From: Oscillospiraceae bacterium | GTDB lineage: Bacteria; Bacillota; Clostridia; Oscillospirales; Acutalibacteraceae | Direction of reading: 5' to 3' | Length of the DNA: 64,000 bases | NCBI GenBank assembly: GCA_015066015.1 | Contig: SVPE01000007.1 | Location: 1 to 64,000, forward strand | Part shown: positions 8,102 to 15,444 of the stretch, piece by piece | Numbering within the stretch: position 1 is the first letter of the stretch | Layout of the letters: every line of letters begins with the position of its first letter | Notes under the pieces: model-generated | Told to the model about the DNA's origin: nothing | Seen by the model: only the letters and a program-made list of their open reading frames with translations | Databases searched by the model: none | Position numbers and translations under genes: made by a program

Positions 8102-9469
8102 ATGGAGAAACTTAAATTTTATCATCTTACAGATTTGCATTATTATGCAAACGAAAGAATCGGCTCAAGCGGTGATGCATACAAACTCAAATGTGAACTT
8201 GACCAGAAGTGTATGGCTGAAAGCGGCGCAATTATTGATGCAGCATTCAAAAGCGTAAGTGAGGACAAGGACACAGAAATTGTGCTGATTTCCGGTGACC
8301 TTACCTTTGACGGAGAGCAGCAGAGTCATGATGCACTTGTTGAAAAGCTTACTGCGCTGAAAAAAAGCGGTAAGCGTATTTTCACAACCTTTGCAACTCA
8401 TGACTTTTATATGCACGCAAGAAAATATACCGATGAAGAGGGGGAGACAGAGCTTCCCAAATATACCCGTGCAGAGCTTCGTCAGCTTTATAACGATTTC
8501 GGCTACAGTGAGGCTATTGCCGAGCACGGGAATTCTTATTCTTACTGCGTTCAGCTTTCCGATGATGTGCGCCTTCTCTGTCTTAATGATGACGGCGACT
8601 TTGATGAATTCTGCGGCTTTTACAACGATTTACTTTTCTGGATTAAGGAGCAGGTTGAGTCTGCAGAGGCAGCGGGCTGCAAGATTTTTGCCATGACTCA
8701 TCATCCGGTTGTAGAGCCTTCACCGGTTTACCCGCTTTTCTCACATAAGGCAATGCTCGGTGGCTATGAGTTTACCGGACCTTATCTTGCTGATCTCGGA
8801 ATCCGCTATATTTTCACGGGACATACACATATTCACGACATTGATTTCATTGAAAGTAAAAGGGGCAACCGTCTCTATCATATCAATACCGCTTCACTTA
8901 TTGCGTATCCTCTTGCTTACCGTAAGGTCGAATTCAGTGATAAGGGAATGGATGTAAAAACTGTTCAGGTAACAGAAATCGACTGGGATCTTGGCGGAAG
9001 AGATGTGCTTGATTACGCTAAAGAGCATTTCACTTATATGATTAAGAGCGTCTTTGATTCCATTGAAAACGATTATGAAAAATTCATTGTGCTTTCTCAG
9101 GGCTTCAGCGGAGAAGGGGAGAAGCTCCGTAAGCTTCAGCCTGTTGTGCAGAAAATCGGCAAGATTGCAAACCGTCTTACCTTCAGGAATCTCTGTACCT
9201 TCTTCGGTTGCGGTAAGTATGTAGATGAAAGCATCGCAAAAAGAAGTATTATTGATTTTATATGTCAGGTTATCCTGAATATGTACAGCGGCAGAGAGGT
9301 TTATTCTCCCGACACACCTGAGCACAGAGCCTTTGTTGCCCTTTGCAAGCGTCTCGGAGTGTTTATAAAACTCAAGGATTATCAGGGTAATCCCGTAAAG
9401 CTCGAGGATGTTATTGCCGGTGTACTTTATGATGGCGGATACGACGACTGGAACGCATTTTTACATTGA
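8102..9469 (+). CDS. Calcineurin-like metallophosphoesterase
   Basis: A 455-residue protein of the binuclear-metal phosphoesterase superfamily. Motifs in order are TDLHYY (D11, H13), SGDLTFDGE (D66), FATHDFY (H100, D101; the usual GNHD is ATHD here), MTHHP and GHTHIHD. The C-terminal 180 residues are family-specific and not recognised. No signal peptide is seen. The substrate is unknown. The position after iolGDE makes a phosphorylated or phosphodiester polyol possible, but this is only context. It is preceded by a terminator and GAGGTG RBS, and is followed with almost no gap by a DUF6125-like gene, so those two are likely co-expressed. Confidence 0.85.
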   Translation: MEKLKFYHLTDLHYYANERIGSSGDAYKLKCELDQKCMAESGAIIDAAFKSVSEDKDTEIVLISGDLTFDGEQQSHDALVEKLTALKKSGKRIFTTFATHDFYMHARKYTDEEGETELPKYTRAELRQLYNDFGYSEAIAEHGNSYSYCVQLSDDVRLLCLNDDGDFDEFCGFYNDLLFWIKEQVESAEAAGCKIFAMTHHPVVEPSPVYPLFSHKAMLGGYEFTGPYLADLGIRYIFTGHTHIHDIDFIESKRGNRLYHINTASLIAYPLAYRKVEFSDKGMDVKTVQVTEIDWDLGGRDVLDYAKEHFTYMIKSVFDSIENDYEKFIVLSQGFSGEGEKLRKLQPVVQKIGKIANRLTFRNLCTFFGCGKYVDESIAKRSIIDFICQVILNMYSGREVYSPDTPEHRAFVALCKRLGVFIKLKDYQGNPVKLEDVIAGVLYDGGYDDWNAFLH

Positions 9470-9474
9470 GAGAT

Positions 9475-9993
9475 ATGATTAATTCTGAGTATTTGTCATC
9501 CTTTTCAAAGGATGAGCTTGTCAGGTTGATAGAGATTTATTCTAAAAACTGGCTTGCGATGGACGGAGTGTGGTTTCAGTCAGTCGAGAAAAAGCACGGT
9601 ATGTCTGAGGCTATGTATCACGATGAGCAGGCGTGGAAGCGTTTTACCGTCATTGAGGCAAAAAGAATAAAGGAATTTCTCGGCCTTGCCGATAATCCGG
9701 GTCTTGGAGGTCTCGAGAAGGCTTTACGGCTCAGATTTTATGCAAACATCAATCGCGATATTATCGAAATTTCCGGAAATACACTGATTTACACTGTTTC
9801 CGAGTGCCGTGTCCAGAGCGCGAGAATTCGCAAGGGTATGGAGCTTCATCCATGCAGAAGTGTCGGTATTATCGAATACAGTGAGTTTGCTAAAGTGATA
9901 GATCCGCGTTTCACCTGTGAGTGCGTCAGCTGCTATCCCGATATAACGGATAAAAGCTGCTGCTGTAAGTGGAAATTTACACTTAATAAATAA
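9475..9993 (+). CDS. Small cytosolic protein resembling DUF6125, Cys-rich C-terminus
   Basis: A protein of 172 residues of unknown function. The N-terminal half (SKNWLAMDGVWFQSVEKKHG, then IEAKRIKEFLG) matches my recollection of the DUF6125 family. The C-terminal 45 residues hold many cysteines (CECVSCYP, then SCCCKWKF), suggesting metal or cluster binding. I chose ATG at 9475, with a weak GAGAG upstream. An in-frame TTG at 9466 overlapping the preceding stop is the alternative. It is tightly linked to the phosphoesterase and ends at a bidirectional terminator. The family name is from memory and should be treated as moderate. Confidence 0.7.
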   Translation: MINSEYLSSFSKDELVRLIEIYSKNWLAMDGVWFQSVEKKHGMSEAMYHDEQAWKRFTVIEAKRIKEFLGLADNPGLGGLEKALRLRFYANINRDIIEISGNTLIYTVSECRVQSARIRKGMELHPCRSVGIIEYSEFAKVIDPRFTCECVSCYPDITDKSCCCKWKFTLNK

Positions 9994-9998
9994 AAAGG

Positions 9999-10036
9999 GG
10001 CTGTTGCATCATCTGTGCAACAGCCGTATTTTTATT
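9999..10036. terminator. Bidirectional terminator between convergent genes
   Basis: GGCTGTTGCA (9999-10008) and TGCAACAGCC (10016-10025) form a perfect 10-pair stem with a 7-base loop. T-rich sequence follows on the plus strand, and the complement of AAAAA follows on the minus strand. It serves the DUF6125-like gene and tarJ. Confidence 0.9.
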
Positions 10037-11057
10037 TTTCCCACTTCATAACTGTCTTGCCGAAGGGATTCTGAATGTCAAAGTCAAAAGCCTCCATAAT
10101 ATCCTTGATGTTTCTTACGGGTTTTACCTGACCGACCATTCTGCCGAGGCGTTCAACAATGTCGGGATGCCTATAGTAAAGCTCAACGGTTTTCCGGAAG
10201 TCATCGCGTCCGCTTCTTGATGAGCCGAAAATACGAAGACCCTTTTCAAGTACCATTCTTGTGTTTATGGGTACGGGATATTCGCTTACACCGAGAATTG
10301 AAATTGTACCTTCAGGATTGATGTAGTCAATAATCTGGTTGATTGCAATCTGTGAAGCGTTACCGCCGACACATTCGAAGGCATGGTCAATCTTGAGATC
10401 CTCGGGAATCTGTGTTGTAAGAAAGGTTTCATCAACGAAGGTGAAATCTGCAAGTTTTTTGGGAACGATGCCGAAGACATAGATTTTACTTTCGGGAAAC
10501 ATCTTCTTGAAGAAAAGACTTGTTATATAGCTTAAAATTCCGTCGCCCCATATGCCGATAACATCTCTTCTTGAATGAGCGATTTTATCAAAACGCGAAA
10601 TGGCGTGAACGCTTACGGAAACGATTTCCGTAAATGCGGCAACTGCCGGGTCAATACCTTCGGGCAGAAGAACAAGTCTGTCAGCAGGCATCTGAACATA
10701 TTCCTGCATAAATCCGTCAAAGCCACTGGCTCGGAATTTACTTGAGCGAAGATAGTTTTCAGCGATAATATCGTCGTTTTCGGTAGGTGTGTTAGGAATC
10801 ATAACAACCTTGTCACCGGGCTTGAAGGTGCCGCTGGGGTCGTGAACAACCTCACCGGTAGCCTCATGAATAAGAGCCATGGGAAGCTTCTGTGCAAGCA
10901 CCTTTGCATCGCGGTTGCCCTGGAAGTATCGCTGGTCTGCGTGACAGATGGAAAGATATCTGGGGCGCACGATAACGTCGGAGCTGAAAATATCAATTTC
11001 GGAAAACTCAATCTCTATTTTTCTCGGTTGAGTCAATCTGTAAACTGTATTAAGCAT
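10032..11057 (-). CDS. tarJ: Ribulose-5-phosphate reductase (TarJ), zinc alcohol dehydrogenase family
   Basis: A 341-residue NADPH-dependent enzyme that reduces ribulose 5-phosphate to ribitol 5-phosphate, the precursor of CDP-ribitol. It is recognised by the TarJ-type N-terminus and blocks such as RPRYLSICHADQRYFQGNRD (catalytic-zinc Cys and ring), PMALIHEATGEVV, MIPNTP, GIWGDGILSYITSL (nucleotide fold), DHAFECVGG and ILGVSEYPVPINTRMVLEKG. RBS AGAGGTAA. It lies 12 bases downstream of tarI, in the same order as the Gram-positive wall teichoic acid gene pair. It has no other dehydrogenase-like neighbour. Confidence 0.93.
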   Translation of the reverse strand: MLNTVYRLTQPRKIEIEFSEIDIFSSDVIVRPRYLSICHADQRYFQGNRDAKVLAQKLPMALIHEATGEVVHDPSGTFKPGDKVVMIPNTPTENDDIIAENYLRSSKFRASGFDGFMQEYVQMPADRLVLLPEGIDPAVAAFTEIVSVSVHAISRFDKIAHSRRDVIGIWGDGILSYITSLFFKKMFPESKIYVFGIVPKKLADFTFVDETFLTTQIPEDLKIDHAFECVGGNASQIAINQIIDYINPEGTISILGVSEYPVPINTRMVLEKGLRIFGSSRSGRDDFRKTVELYYRHPDIVERLGRMVGQVKPVRNIKDIMEAFDFDIQNPFGKTVMKWEK

Positions 11058-11069
11058 TTAATTTACCTC

Positions 11070-11780
11070 TTATTTGATTTCTTCGTCAAGAAGAGCTTTG
11101 GCAACACGAAGGTCATATGGGTAGGTGATTTTGATGTTGTGTACTTCACCTTCGATCATGTGCACGTTATAGCCTTTCATACTAAAAATCTTACATGCAT
11201 CAGTGAGTATATTCTTTTCATCTTCTGTCAGACTGAAATAAAGCTCCTTAAGAGTTTTTGCCCTGAAGGCCTGGGGAGTCTGTCCCTGATAAAGCTTACT
11301 TCTGTCGGGGATGGAGCTGATTGTTTCTCCGTTCTGACTTTCAACAATGGTGTCTGTTGCGGGAACGACTGTATCTGTTGCACCGTATTTGAGTGCAGCA
11401 TTGATGTTTTCTTCAATGATTCTTGCGGAAACGAAGGGGCGTACTGCGTCGTGAGTAACGATGATTGTTTCATCGTCAAGACCGTCTGTTTCCTCAATGT
11501 ATTTTATGGAGTTCATAATGGTTTCGTTTCTCGTGCTTCCGCCCTTGAGAACGATAACCTTATCATTTTCGGGAAGGTACTTTGCAAGAATCTCTTTGGT
11601 ATAGTTTACCCACTGATCGGGGCAAAGGATAATTACTTTTTTGAAATTTGCATTGACAAAAAACTTTTCTACCGTGTGAACGATAATGGGCTTATCCTTG
11701 ATTTTGAGATATTGCTTGGGTTTTTCCATGTTGCCCATTCTGCTGCCGATTCCGCCGGCGGCGATTACTGCGTACGTCAT
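11070..11780 (-). CDS. tarI: Ribitol-5-phosphate cytidylyltransferase (TarI/IspD family)
   Basis: A 236-residue nucleotidyltransferase that activates ribitol 5-phosphate with CTP to CDP-ribitol. The signature AAGGIGSRMG and KPKQYLKI form the CTP-binding N-terminus; THDAVRPFVS and QTPQAF are typical of the IspD/TarI family. IspD (isoprenoid pathway) is the alternative, but overlap with TarJ in one operon strongly favours TarI. The start follows GAGGTG. Transcription is from a near-consensus promoter with palindromes at the start site. The product is expected to feed teichoic-acid-like or other ribitol-phosphate modification, possibly through the divergent LicD. Confidence 0.9.
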   Translation of the reverse strand: MTYAVIAAGGIGSRMGNMEKPKQYLKIKDKPIIVHTVEKFFVNANFKKVIILCPDQWVNYTKEILAKYLPENDKVIVLKGGSTRNETIMNSIKYIEETDGLDDETIIVTHDAVRPFVSARIIEENINAALKYGATDTVVPATDTIVESQNGETISSIPDRSKLYQGQTPQAFRAKTLKELYFSLTEDEKNILTDACKIFSMKGYNVHMIEGEVHNIKITYPYDLRVAKALLDEEIK

Positions 11781-11801
11781 AAATTTTCACCTCATATAAA
11801 T

Positions 11802-11823
11802 TATACTGGACAGTATATACTGT
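11802..11823 (-). promoter_or_regulatory. Nested palindromes at the tarI transcription start (candidate operator)
   Basis: ACAGTATATACTGT (11810-11823) is a perfect 14-base palindrome. TATACTG (11802-11808) also forms an inverted repeat with CAGTATA (11811-11817) and a direct repeat with TATACTG (11816-11822). The cluster covers about -4 to +19 of the predicted tarI transcript, an ideal repressor position. Confidence 0.55.
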
Positions 11824-11826
11824 TAT

Positions 11827-11854
11827 ATTATACCTTTTATTCCGTTTTTGTCAA
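11827..11854 (-). promoter_or_regulatory. Sigma-A promoter of tarI-tarJ
   Basis: Read on the minus strand: TTGACA (plus 11849-11854), a 16-base spacer, and TATAAT (plus 11827-11832). Predicted start is near 11820, with a leader of about 40 bases. Confidence 0.85.
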
Positions 11855-11878
11855 CTGAATATCCTTTTATGTAACAAG

Positions 11879-11907
11879 TTGACAAAAATGTTGCAGGGGA
11901 GTATAAT
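11879..11907 (+). promoter_or_regulatory. Consensus sigma-A promoter of the licD operon
   Basis: TTGACA (11879-11884), a 17-base spacer, and TATAAT (11902-11907) are a perfect consensus match. Transcription should begin near 11914. It is back-to-back with the tarI promoter, with 24 bases between the two -35 boxes. Confidence 0.9.
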
Positions 11908-11941
11908 ATTTGGGAATATGAAAAAAAGGATTGATAAATTA

Positions 11942-13912
11942 ATGAATCAGTTTTTTATTGATGAGTTGAGATGTATTTCAACAGACCTCAACTCCAAAAA
12001 GAAAAATCCGCGTTTTTATTGCGGAAACGAGATAAATATTATCGGTGATGAAAACGGTCTGGCAGCTTACCTTGCAGGCTTCAATATGTCAGTTATAACT
12101 GCTGAAGATAAGGGTGCAGTCAACGTAATTGCAGAAGGAAAATGGCGCAATAAAGCACTCTACGACGAGATTCAGGGCGAGTTCGGTCACAAGGAGTGTA
12201 TGTGTCTTCTCGATAGTTTTGACGACTATCTCAAGGTGACTGATAATAAGCGTATCAAACGTTTTTATTATATTGCAAATCTTCAGCTTGAAGAATACAA
12301 GGACGAAGCCTTTGCAAATGAAAAAATCGCTAATCTTGCTAAGTGGCTTGACTATGCAATGAAAAACGACGGCAGATTCATTTTTATTCCTGTTTTCAAC
12401 TTTGCAAAGCCTTTCCCGTACGGTGTTGCCGCCTGCTCGGAAAGAGAGCTTGAGGCTTTTGCCGAATACGACAGTGGCTTTTATCAGGGCAGAATCCTCG
12501 GCAAAATGGAGGATGTCTGCAGAAAATACTTCAAGGGTAAGAAAAATTACATCAAGGAAATCCGTTTTGATAATATTTTCGGACCTCTTGTTGACAGTAC
12601 ATCAAACATCAACCTTGACGGCATCATTGATGAGCTCGTTAAGGAGAACAAGGTTACATTCTACACCTCCGACGGTGTTACTTACCATACGGGCTGCTAT
12701 ATCAGACAGGCGGTAACTGCAGTTTACTATGTAGATTTTATGGGTAAAATCGGTAATATCTACAACGCTTCGAATTACAGATTCACCCTTCACGATATAA
12801 AGAGTGATCTTTATAAAAAATTCCGCCATAAGAATCCCTCAGTCAGCTTTGTAAACGATACTGACGGAATCATTCCCGAAAACAATTACGATTGCCTCGG
12901 TAATATCAAAATCAAAAATCTCGGCTGGTCTAAAATCACACCTCTTGCTGAGGCTGTCTACAGAACAGCTCTTGCACGATGCGATGAGGAGTATATGGCA
13001 GATTTCTATGTGTCCGTATATCAGGGTAAGCTTGAAAGAATCAAGCAGATTGAAATGGATATTATGGCAGAAATTGACCGTATCTGTAAGGAAAATGATA
13101 TTACATATTTCCTCGTAGGAGGTACGCTTCTCGGTGCAGTAAGACATAAGGGCTTTATTCCCTGGGACGACGATATTGATATCGGTATGCTCCGTGACGA
13201 TTATGATAAGTTCAGAAGGGTTTGTCCCGATTCACTCAAACCCCATCTCAGCTATCAGTCACACCTTAAGGAAACTACTTCTCACTACATTTTTGATAAG
13301 GTCAGACTCAAGGATACCTACTTCAACACAAAGTTCTCAAACAGATTCGATGATATCCAGAACGGTATTTTCATTGACGTGCTTGTTTTTGATAAAACCG
13401 GCAATACAAAGGCGAGTCAGAGGGTACACATAAAGCTTGTCAAGATTTTCCGCAGACTTATCAATGTCCGTTGGGTAAACGTTGCAAGAAGGGGAATTCA
13501 CTACAGAGCCTCAAAGCTTTTCCTTCCCTTTATGAGACTTGTTCCTTACAAGCTGTATCACCGTTGCCTCGACAAGGCTCTTACGCTTTACCATAAGAAC
13601 AAAAAGAGCGCTTACCTTATTGACGGCGTAGGACTTAATCTTGATAAGGGTGCATTCCCGGCTGAGTGGTTTGGTGAGTTTATCGATATGCCTTATGAAA
13701 ATATGACCTTCAAGGTGCCTGTAGGCTATGATAATTACCTTCGTATGTGGTACGGTGACCGTTATATGGAGCTGCTTCCTCTTTCGGCACGTTTCTCCGG
13801 TCACAAGCTGCTGCGACTTGACCTTGGTAAATATATCATTCCCGAAACAGAAAACAAACAGCTTCACGAAAATCATCTTCTCGGTGAGCTTTACGAAGAG
13901 CCTCTCAATTGA
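11942..13912 (+). CDS. Epimerase-like/LicD fusion, predicted phospho-polyol transferase
   Basis: A protein of 656 residues. The C-terminal part (about 370-640) is a LicD domain: GGTLLGAVRHKGFIPWDDDI with the metal-binding Asp cluster D409-D411 and D413, then IFIDVLVFD, GLNLDKGAFPAEWFG and YLRMWYGDRYM. LicD-family proteins transfer phosphocholine or, in the fukutin branch, ribitol phosphate. The N-terminal ~300 residues resemble an extended SDR epimerase (EDVCRKYF, RFDNIFGPLVD) but lack a clear glycine motif and YxxxK, so it is probably non-catalytic. I chose ATG 11942 (AAAGGA upstream) because earlier in-frame TTG 11879 is the -35 box. It is divergent from tarIJ and co-transcribed with the LCAT-like gene. 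Confidence 0.85.
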   Translation: MNQFFIDELRCISTDLNSKKKNPRFYCGNEINIIGDENGLAAYLAGFNMSVITAEDKGAVNVIAEGKWRNKALYDEIQGEFGHKECMCLLDSFDDYLKVTDNKRIKRFYYIANLQLEEYKDEAFANEKIANLAKWLDYAMKNDGRFIFIPVFNFAKPFPYGVAACSERELEAFAEYDSGFYQGRILGKMEDVCRKYFKGKKNYIKEIRFDNIFGPLVDSTSNINLDGIIDELVKENKVTFYTSDGVTYHTGCYIRQAVTAVYYVDFMGKIGNIYNASNYRFTLHDIKSDLYKKFRHKNPSVSFVNDTDGIIPENNYDCLGNIKIKNLGWSKITPLAEAVYRTALARCDEEYMADFYVSVYQGKLERIKQIEMDIMAEIDRICKENDITYFLVGGTLLGAVRHKGFIPWDDDIDIGMLRDDYDKFRRVCPDSLKPHLSYQSHLKETTSHYIFDKVRLKDTYFNTKFSNRFDDIQNGIFIDVLVFDKTGNTKASQRVHIKLVKIFRRLINVRWVNVARRGIHYRASKLFLPFMRLVPYKLYHRCLDKALTLYHKNKKSAYLIDGVGLNLDKGAFPAEWFGEFIDMPYENMTFKVPVGYDNYLRMWYGDRYMELLPLSARFSGHKLLRLDLGKYIIPETENKQLHENHLLGELYEEPLN

Positions 13913-13941
13913 GAGATAAAAACAGAAAAGGAGCAAGGTTT

Positions 13942-15444
13942 ATGAAAAAGTTCAGTAAGATTATTTCTCTTATACTTTCTGTTATTCTCACATTTGTTTT
14001 AGTTGTGCCTGCCTTTGCAGCAGACACCGACAAACAGACCTGCCCGGTAATTTTCATCCCGGGATTTGCTACAAGTCATATTTATACAGACAAGGATAAT
14101 CCTGTAGAAGAAATACAGCCCATCAGCTCGGATGTACTGCTTGAAATTGTCAAGGAAACACTTATTCCTTCGCTGATTATTTTTTCTGCTGACCGCGATT
14201 ACGACAAGCTCGCTTCAAGTCTTTGCGATGCAATCAACAGTAAGTTTTCAACATGGTTCAATAATCTTGACGGAAGCGCTATGGGTAATTCAGGTGTGCT
14301 CCGTGTTTATCCTGAAGCAACATCAGTAAATTCTTCTTCAGACCTTCGTTTCGACTATGACTGGAGAGGCGACCCGATTGCAATAGCAGCCGAGCTTAAT
14401 GACTATATCAATTACATCACTCAGAGCTGTGGTTGCGATAAGGTATCACTTACGGCTCACTCTCTCGGTAACGTCATTACGCTTACATATCTTTCAATTT
14501 ACGGCTTTGATAAGGTGCAGGGTGCAGTTTTCGACACACCGGCAATTGACGGTGTTGATTATATCGGAGATCTTATGTGCGGCGAGTTTGAGTTTACAGA
14601 CGGCTCGGTGGATGCACTTTTCCGTCTTATTCTCGGCAGTACAGAATATGAGCAGCTTCTTTCAAGTGTTGCAGATGCTTTCGGTATTGCAGGTATTCCC
14701 GGAATGCTTGCATTGTTTCTCAACGATATACTCGAAAAGATAGCTCCTACAGTTTTCAGAGAAACTCTTGTGCCTGTTTTCGGCACCTGGCCGACAATCT
14801 GGGCAATGACTCCCGATGACCGTATTGACGAGTCTATGGATTACATATTCAGCACATACTTTACAACTGAAGATTCATTGGTGCTCAGATCAAAAGTCGA
14901 GGCTTATAACACAGCCGTAAGAGAGAACAAGTATCAGACATTGCTTGCTTTCGACGGGGTTGCACGGGTTGCCGTAATTTCAAGATACGGAGCATCTTCT
15001 ATTCCCATAACATCCTCGTGGAATAATCTCAGTGACGGTGTTATTGACACAAAGCATAGCTCACTCGGAGCAACAACGGCTTCTTATGGTGAGATTTTAA
15101 GCAGTGAATACCTTGAAGGTAAGGATTCTGCATATATTTCACCTGATAAAACGGTTGATGCATCAACCTGTCTTTTCCCGGAGAAAACCTGGTTTATTAA
15201 AAATCTCGGTCATCAGGACTTCCTTTGTACTCAGGTGTATTATGAGTCATTCCTTTTTGCACAGCAGGAGCCTACAACCGAAAATCACGCTCTTTCACGT
15301 TTCAGCATTCTGAATCCGGAGACGGGCGGATTTGATGTAGACGAGTCTGTTCCCGACCCTGTGGAAAAGCTTTCACCCTGGCAGGTTCTCATAAAATTTC
15401 TTAAGTCAATTTTGGCAAAGTTTCTTGAGCTTTTCAAAAAATAA
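13942..15444 (+). CDS. Secreted LCAT-like alpha/beta hydrolase, Ser nucleophile
   Basis: A 500-residue exported protein. A signal peptide (residues 1-28, ending PAFAA) precedes VIFIPGF, a strand and oxyanion-hole loop like those of lecithin:cholesterol acyltransferase/PGAP1-type lipases. RFDYDWRGDP and SLTAHSLGN follow, with Ser174 the nucleophile; His424 in LGHQDF is a candidate catalytic His. The C-terminus (SPWQVLIKFLKSILAKF) is an amphipathic helix that may hold the membrane surface. The ATG follows AAAGGAG; it is 29 bases after licD, so they form an operon. A clear paralogue lies at 34399-36054. The substrate is unknown; a lipid or lipid-linked glycan ester is plausible. Confidence 0.8.
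   Translation: MKKFSKIISLILSVILTFVLVVPAFAADTDKQTCPVIFIPGFATSHIYTDKDNPVEEIQPISSDVLLEIVKETLIPSLIIFSADRDYDKLASSLCDAINSKFSTWFNNLDGSAMGNSGVLRVYPEATSVNSSSDLRFDYDWRGDPIAIAAELNDYINYITQSCGCDKVSLTAHSLGNVITLTYLSIYGFDKVQGAVFDTPAIDGVDYIGDLMCGEFEFTDGSVDALFRLILGSTEYEQLLSSVADAFGIAGIPGMLALFLNDILEKIAPTVFRETLVPVFGTWPTIWAMTPDDRIDESMDYIFSTYFTTEDSLVLRSKVEAYNTAVRENKYQTLLAFDGVARVAVISRYGASSIPITSSWNNLSDGVIDTKHSSLGATTASYGEILSSEYLEGKDSAYISPDKTVDASTCLFPEKTWFIKNLGHQDFLCTQVYYESFLFAQQEPTTENHALSRFSILNPETGGFDVDESVPDPVEKLSPWQVLIKFLKSILAKFLELFKK

Follow-up and report, generated by a model that had tools for sequence, protein, structure and literature searches.

In the 64,000-nucleotide stretch of DNA analyzed here (contig SVPE01000007.1 of assembly GCA_015066015.1, from an uncultured Oscillospiraceae bacterium of the Acutalibacteraceae), which at its whole length we call the window, the genes tarJ and tarI on the − strand lie divergently from a gene on the + strand that encodes a LicD domain fused behind a short-chain dehydrogenase/reductase (SDR) domain, hereafter SDR-LicD. 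We consider it probable, judging from gene content and gene order, that SDR-LicD moves ribitol phosphate from CDP-ribitol onto a teichoic-acid-like glycan, replacing or sharing the job of TarL/TarK-type enzymes. The strongest evidence is a slot exchange: in sister species TarL/TarK-type genes occupy the place of SDR-LicD next to the same tarJ and tarI, which suggests that the two kinds of enzyme do related work with the same donor.

The identities of the two donor genes are firm. tarJ (10032..11057, − strand) encodes a 341-residue ribulose-5-phosphate reductase of the zinc alcohol-dehydrogenase family (Pfam ADH_N and ADH_zinc_N), and its product matches PDB 6xh9, 'Ribulose-5-phosphate reductase 1', over residues 1–339 of 341 with an E value of 1.5e-134. 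tarI (11070..11780, − strand) encodes a 236-residue D-ribitol-5-phosphate cytidylyltransferase that scores 362.7 bits with NF001183, the NCBIfam model for this enzyme (cut-off 166); its top PDB matches are 4jis (ribitol-5-phosphate cytidylyltransferase), 3f1c and 6xhp (Ribitol-5-phosphate cytidylyltransferase 1), and 2vsh supports the same assignment. An earlier note on this DNA had described a TarI-TarJ plus LicD divergon, and this description was borne out: all three genes are present as named, and the divergon recurs in four other genomes, two of them with tarJ.

Gene exchange at one chromosomal slot

We compared 34 genomes of the genus, the window genome included (G000; 2.38 Mb in 42 contigs, 91% complete); gene identities, domains, the state of motifs, the slot exchange, promoter-like sites and the negative results for choline kinase and TagD were all computed. 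The slot is flanked by pfl-iolD-iolE genes on one side and by rnj-gdpP on the other. It holds tarJ-tarI and SDR-LicD in the window genome, G014 and G002, and tarI and SDR-LicD in G005 and G004, such that the divergon is conserved in these five genomes, with tarJ in three of them. In G010, G016 and G032, the slot holds tarJ-tarI and two PF04464 genes (468 and 402–411 amino acids), and G013 has tarJ-tarI and two PF04464 genes in the identical order, spread over two contigs. Because sister species hold tarJ-tarI with two PF04464 genes in the same slot, SDR-LicD looks, on this comparison of gene order, like an in-place substitute for TarL/TarK-type genes.

The remaining SDR-LicD species of this group show other arrangements. 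A tandem SDR-LicD gene adjoins rnj in G023 and G024, and lies away from rnj, which is on another contig, in G007. In G021 the genes are distributed over three contigs. On the first, a C-terminal LicD fragment adjoins rnj at the contig edge; the second terminates in an N-terminal SDR-LicD fragment; the third carries tarJI and a TarL-type gene next to iol. An RNase J tree covering 30 of the 34 genomes placed these 14 species in one clade (support 98/97), with SDR-LicD in nine, the TarL/TarK-type slot in four, and G031, which is taken up below; the four TarL/TarK-slot species form a clade of their own (100/100).

The SDR-LicD protein and its relatives

The earlier note had read the protein as LicD only and missed a dead reductase domain of ~340 residues at its N terminus. 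This domain (11978..12991, + strand) has an extended-SDR fold with the nucleotide-binding and catalytic motifs lost, a predicted pseudo-CDP-alditol reductase. It gave no Pfam match at E ≤ 1, and a Pfam scan of the whole protein returned LicD only, with no PF04464 domain. When the predicted structure was used in a fold search, the matches listed for the full SDR-LicD model fell on the SDR half, the best being 8v4h/8v4g, the CDP-6-fructose reductase of C. jejuni. The motifs TGxxGxx(G/A/S/C) and YxxxK are missing from the window protein and from all 20 fused SDR-LicD units compared, and are kept in 11 of 11 free SDRs (six of these end the first motif in G, five in A, S or C). L116 and L117 were not counted in this comparison, and two further loci stand outside the 20 units, L096 with undefined residues and L088 with its SDR part across two open reading frames (ORFs). 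Because these motifs are lost, the SDR half was rejected as an active enzyme; on the predicted model it is a dead reductase, closest to a CDP-alditol-making reductase.

The LicD half, in comparison, retains its catalytic features. The LicD domain (13085..13756, + strand; PF04991, 143.5 bits) has an intact PWDDDID motif, and in the 677-residue ORF PF04991 covers residues 403–626 with 139.5 bits (cut-off 22.6). The kinship with FKRP put forward in the earlier note was upheld, FKRP being the only PDB match of the LicD part, with E values of 1.6e-5 by phmmer (single sequence) and 9e-14 by profile (6kaj); only short stretches of the LicD half align. Numbered on a 664-residue stretch translated from 11918, which was also used for structure prediction, residues V400-G401-G402, D417, D419, D421 and D487 fit the FKRP-type glycine motif hG[GS] and the Asp set D360, D362, D364 and D416 of FKRP (PMC6965139). 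This pairing is our own: D417, D419 and D421 were paired through the aligned PWD.D.D motif, and D487 was paired with D416 by position only, outside the alignments. Asp is present at all four positions in 17 of the 20 fused units. The other three are the second copies in the tandem SDR-LicD-SDR-LicD proteins of G007, G023 and G024 (1314–1331 residues; L051:5760-9734, L053:5770-9714 and L054:6918-10913), in all of which the Asp set is lost, with E at 417, T or S at 419, D or E at 421 and N at 487. By these residues, the tandem forms would be arranged as in an enzyme-pseudoenzyme pair.

More widely, we examined the 80 named LicD loci most similar to the query, many of which stop at contig ends. 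The fusion is present in L089–L096. A quick tree of 130 LicD domains, built without authenticated choline-type or FKRP rows, united the 21 fused rows and the LicD of L088 in one clade with a Shimodaira-Hasegawa-like approximate likelihood-ratio (SH-aLRT) support of 100. A TarI-family gene lies within 4 kb of LicD in 15 of the 80 named loci, and within 4 kb at 11 of 19 SDR-LicD loci. These 11 comprise four that also have TarJ (the window, L048, L049 and L090, the last repeating SDR-LicD with tarI and tarJ in another lineage), two with a separate SDR gene (that of L095 has its motifs; that of L092 was seen by tblastn only), two with a hydroxyacid-dehydrogenase-like gene (L056 and L088) and three with none of these (L050, L052 and L089). 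In six of the nine named SDR-LicD loci (L088, L089, L090, L093, L095 and L096), TagG/TagH-type genes precede SDR-LicD on its own strand at a distance of up to ~2 kb; the window genome has a TagG/TagH-type pair at C16:67699-69305.

The gene itself most likely runs from ATG 11942 to 13912 on the + strand and encodes 656 residues. The earlier note had placed its start at TTG 11879. This triplet begins at the first base of a perfect promoter-like match (11879..11907, + strand; TTGACA-N17-TATAAT, 12/12), that is, inside the −35 box, and the LicD proteins of all five divergon genomes start at the equivalent of ATG 11942 (MNQ[FY]F in the relatives); therefore, the 656-residue protein is the most likely product. 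A second perfect match (11827..11854, − strand; TTGACA-N16-TATAAT, 12/12) precedes tarIJ, and both back-to-back matches are present in 5/5 divergon genomes. A 16-bp palindrome at 11802-11817 was rejected as an operator: the intergenic regions of G014, G002, G005 and G004 lack it, and 18 of 100 shuffles produced a match with two or fewer mismatches. Two neighbouring genes of the window are not at the same places in G014 and G002: a DUF6125 gene (9466-9993) between a phosphoesterase gene and tarJ, and a putative secreted alpha/beta hydrolase (13909-15444) immediately after SDR-LicD. Distant relatives of the hydrolase adjoin PF04464 genes in L080 and L084 and lie ~4 kb from a TarI-type gene in L056.

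Donor, rival explanations and the role of TarI

Transfer of ribitol phosphate in place of TarL/TarK has several points against it, namely the only named model that LicD matches, the PF04464 genes kept elsewhere together with a slot that lacks both transferase types, SDR-LicD genomes that yield no TarJ match, and a possible second role of TarI. We weigh each here with the alternative on which it bears.

LicD proteins are best known from choline loci. The only NCBIfam model matched by the LicD protein is the choline transferase Mf1, at 80.7 bits, far below its cut-off of 225. The window genome has one LicD, which could be an ordinary LicD, transferring phosphocholine (or glycerol phosphate), that just happens to lie next to tarIJ. 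We regard this as the least probable of the explanations weighed here. The choline genes that the earlier note did not see in the window could be followed genome-wide in part: a choline kinase (PF01633, LicA) scored at best 18.2 bits against a cut-off of 29, and licB and licC were not searched. Among the neighbours of the LicD loci, a motif scan for LicC-like genes gave L150 and L104 as the only possible cases, both unproven. TagD, the maker of CDP-glycerol, has no match in 33 of the 34 genomes, the window genome included, and CDP-glycerol was rejected as the donor there. The one match, in G033, scores 109 bits (cut-off 165.4), and a LicD-containing protein directly adjoins this TagD-like gene (G033:C33; L061:6728-10098), which favours the glycerol variant in that another LicD may use a glycerol-type donor. 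With Mf1 far below its cut-off and no choline kinase above its own, choline was rejected as the main reading, against which the exchange with TarL/TarK-type genes also speaks. Because TarI and TarJ are firm and neither a choline kinase above cut-off nor a TagD match was found, CDP-ribitol is, on these gene assignments, the best-supported donor of LicD in the window genome. The earlier note had proposed that LicD uses CDP-ribitol instead of CDP-choline; with the slot exchange and the FKRP kinship added, this is the best reading, although SDR-LicD is not the sole candidate user of CDP-ribitol.

The other candidates are PF04464 proteins. As the earlier note had stated, no TarK or TarL lies within the window; however, the window genome has three PF04464 proteins elsewhere, at C23:17327, C21:124225 and C5:37601 (the last match within a ~950-residue protein), and therefore CDP-ribitol has other possible users. 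The best named model for these proteins is TarL, far below its cut-off; for the 424-residue protein at C21:124225, which has relatives in G014 (73%) and G002 (53%), it is the best NCBIfam model, at 195.7 bits against 1000. The window genome, G014 and G002 thus each retain a TarL-type PF04464 gene elsewhere, which leaves no simple replacement story, and the close relative G031 has tarJ-tarI alone in the slot, with neither transferase type. It is accordingly quite conceivable, if somewhat short of an even chance, that SDR-LicD adds a single ribitol phosphate as primer, linkage or side decoration and that PF04464 proteins build the chain. The C21:124225 protein and its relatives fit such a division of labour, as does the finding that FKRP and FKTN each add single units in sequence (PMC6965139). 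Set against it are the two PF04464 genes that occupy the slot of SDR-LicD in sister species, and four SDR-LicD genomes (G004, G007, G023 and G024; 95, 72, 86 and 87% complete) that have a single PF04464 match each, of the ~950-residue type. The donor would be the same in either case, such that this alternative is compatible with our claim about CDP-ribitol.

The donor itself is put in question by five SDR-LicD genomes, G004, G005, G007, G023 and G024, in which we found no TarJ match, and therefore the donor there may be another CDP-pentitol. In four TarJ-less species, a TarI-type cytidylyltransferase occurs with an intact SDR (L215:6884-9337, L216:281-2035, L217:6952-9414 and L218:3584-6047). 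In G004, G007 and G023 these two genes form a row with a gene resembling L-ribulose-5-phosphate 4-epimerase (its family was tested in G004 alone), which is next after the SDR in L215, L217 and L218 (family tested in L215 only); in G005 the TarI-type and SDR genes run up to a contig end. This gene content suggests a CDP-pentitol made via a CDP-ketose route. The SDR-LicD subfamily could hence be a general CDP-pentitol transferase whose true donor is another CDP-alditol, for example from a TarI-type enzyme and an active SDR, as the loci L095 and L092 (TarI-type with free SDR) and L056 and L088 (TarI-type with hydroxyacid-dehydrogenase-like gene) would also allow. We think this improbable: the single IspD-family protein of the window genome adjoins TarJ, and therefore CDP-ribitol is the only such donor visible there, and at L090, in a different lineage, SDR-LicD again accompanies tarI and tarJ. 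Two loci show related combinations. In L208:8129-12989 (G030:C28), a TarI-type gene, an intact SDR and a gene for a 974-residue PF04464-matching protein are consecutive, so that here this donor module is paired with PF04464 instead of LicD. In L136:8001-10518, from a metagenome bin labelled Methanobrevibacter, LicD, TarI-type and TarJ-like (26% identity) genes lie together, which may reflect an archaeal teichoic-like pathway or a binning error.

That TarI is the sole IspD-family match (PF01128) in the window genome bears on a further alternative, in which tarI is in fact an ispD of the isoprenoid pathway and its closeness to LicD a housekeeping chance. IspF (TIGR00151) is found in 31 of the 34 genomes, including the window genome (G000:C25:15532-15993), which also has Dxr (497 bits, L072); IspE was found in G014. 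TarJ and IspF occur together in 24 genomes, and in 22 of these the single IspD-family match above cut-off is the TarI adjoining TarJ, with G025 counted on a partial match only (69.9 bits, at a contig end) and extra matches in G003, G028 and G031 falling below cut-off (20.7–24.1 bits). The other two, G029 and G030, carry an additional copy within a different CDP-alditol-type cluster. TarI-family ORFs in which fewer than 190 residues aligned, for example the split ORF at L134, were left out of an IspD-family list. Further, of the nine genomes without a TarJ match, six retain tarI (G004, G005, G007, G023, G026 and G033) in one clade (99/98) with longer branches; in the others, the TarI of G015 is truncated where its contig stops, and no IspD-family match was found in G017 or G024, perhaps through assembly gaps. 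G007 has no IspF match. With the ispD model TIGR00453 (cut-off 181.3), two of the four TarI proteins scored from TarJ-less relatives pass (L050, 188.0; L052, 189.7) and two fail (L209, 174.4; L203, 167.5).

These results notwithstanding, a purely isoprenoid TarI is very improbable. TarJ stands next to it, its NF001183 score of 362.7 exceeds the cut-off of 166, its TIGR00453 score of 178.2 narrowly misses that of the ispD model, and tarJI adjoins PF04464 genes in sister species; the isoprenoid role accounts for tarI outlasting tarJ, not for the placement of LicD or TarL. Because the window genome has IspF and Dxr, and TarI is the sole IspD-family protein found there, we suspect a dual role instead: on these gene counts, TarI of this genus probably serves both the CDP-ribitol and the isoprenoid (methylerythritol phosphate) pathways, which is more likely than a TarI-only or an IspD-only role. 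By the same token, the adjacency of tarI and LicD does not on its own establish that they share a pathway. G041, which belongs to another genus, has both a TarIJ cluster and an IspD (TIGR00453, 229.5) that adjoins a gene resembling IspF (by eye). The TarI of G044, in a 406-residue open frame, was rejected as an IspD-IspF fusion: no IspF follows, as read by eye. A limited literature search found no published description of a TarI double role.

Proposed mechanism and comparison with known systems

We infer the donor, the acceptor, the export, the role of the stem and the choice between chain extension and single units from the results above. TarJ would reduce ribulose-5-phosphate, and TarI would activate the product to CDP-ribitol. 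SDR-LicD, whose promoter and that of tarIJ point away from each other, would use CDP-ribitol to add ribitol phosphate to a teichoic-acid-like glycan as it grows, and a TagG/TagH-type transporter would then export the glycan. With its FKRP-type Asp set, the LicD half would perform the chemistry. The SDR half would be a non-enzyme descended from a CDP-alditol-making reductase, probably a stem for oligomerization or acceptor binding like the dead glycosyltransferase-like stem of FKRP. SDR-LicD would most likely have taken over, or share, the job of the two TarL/TarK-type genes of sister species. A bolder version, in which SDR-LicD is a ribitol-phosphate polymerase that replaces TarL/TarK in place, its stem is the dead remnant of a reductase that formerly made its donor and TarI does double duty as the only IspD of the genus, is offered tentatively, and we doubt that it holds as a whole.

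The slot is a natural case in which the PF04464 and LicD families swap at one chromosomal position, next to the same genes for making an activated alditol. SDR-LicD would be a bacterial counterpart of the FKRP plan, with a dead enzyme as stem and LicD as catalyst. Should TarI indeed do the IspD step, one cytidylyltransferase would link the synthesis of a cell-wall polymer to that of isoprenoids. The subfamily, with its TarI, TarJ, SDR and TagGH neighbours, may also provide markers for assigning donors to LicD proteins that databases perhaps name after choline. What appears to be new is the dead-reductase LicD subfamily, the slot exchange, the tandem forms with a catalytically depleted second LicD, and TarI as the only IspD-family protein; neither an SDR-LicD fusion nor a TarL/LicD slot exchange was found in the titles and abstract openings of the open-access papers that our searches listed.

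The use of CDP-ribitol by a bacterial LicD, as suggested in the earlier note, is itself not new. LicD3 of S. oralis and S. pneumoniae was proposed to insert ribitol phosphate into teichoic acid (PMC4649388), and the LicD proteins EF2175 and EF2168 of the E. faecalis polysaccharide EPA were proposed to use CDP-ribitol from a TarI homolog (PMC7188991). The species with LicD3 also have LicA, B and C (PMC4649388), whereas the window genome has no choline kinase above cut-off, and for EPA the authors model export through a Wzx flippase (PMC7188991), unlike the TagG/TagH-type export proposed here. In the parts of these two papers used here, we found no SDR fusion or slot exchange for LicD3 or the EPA LicDs. 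The ribitol teichoic acid pathway of TarIJ and TarL/TarK shares TarI and TarJ with the window, and its TarL/TarK-type genes fill the slot in the sister species; it differs in having PF04464 enzymes where the window has LicD.

The capsule polyol of the A. pleuropneumoniae Cps7C serotype is glycerol phosphate. CpsC (Cps7C) of that species, a LicD enzyme described as a polyol-phosphate polymerase, with its product named as polyol phosphate, resembles SDR-LicD in that a LicD with a CDP-polyol donor stands where other systems use PF04464 enzymes; it has tetratricopeptide repeats (TPR) and not an SDR in its N-terminal part, and serves a Gram-negative capsule (PMC11666461). HS5.17, the CDP-6-D-glucitol synthase of C. 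jejuni HS:5 (8v4g/8v4h; PMC10918830), differs from the 20 fused units, which are without TGxxG and YxxxK. Another parallel in plan is mammalian. As in the ISPD-FKTN/FKRP system, an IspD-family enzyme would make CDP-ribitol and a LicD-family enzyme would transfer the ribitol phosphate, and, as with the stem of FKRP, the N-terminal part resembles an enzyme that has lost its key motif (PMC6965139, PMC4873967); FKTN is modelled without the zinc-finger loop of FKRP (PMC6965139), and bacterial ISPD-LicD fusions have been mentioned (PMC4873967). Unlike FKRP, with its dead glycosyltransferase-like stem, SDR-LicD is bacterial and has a dead SDR as its N-terminal part.

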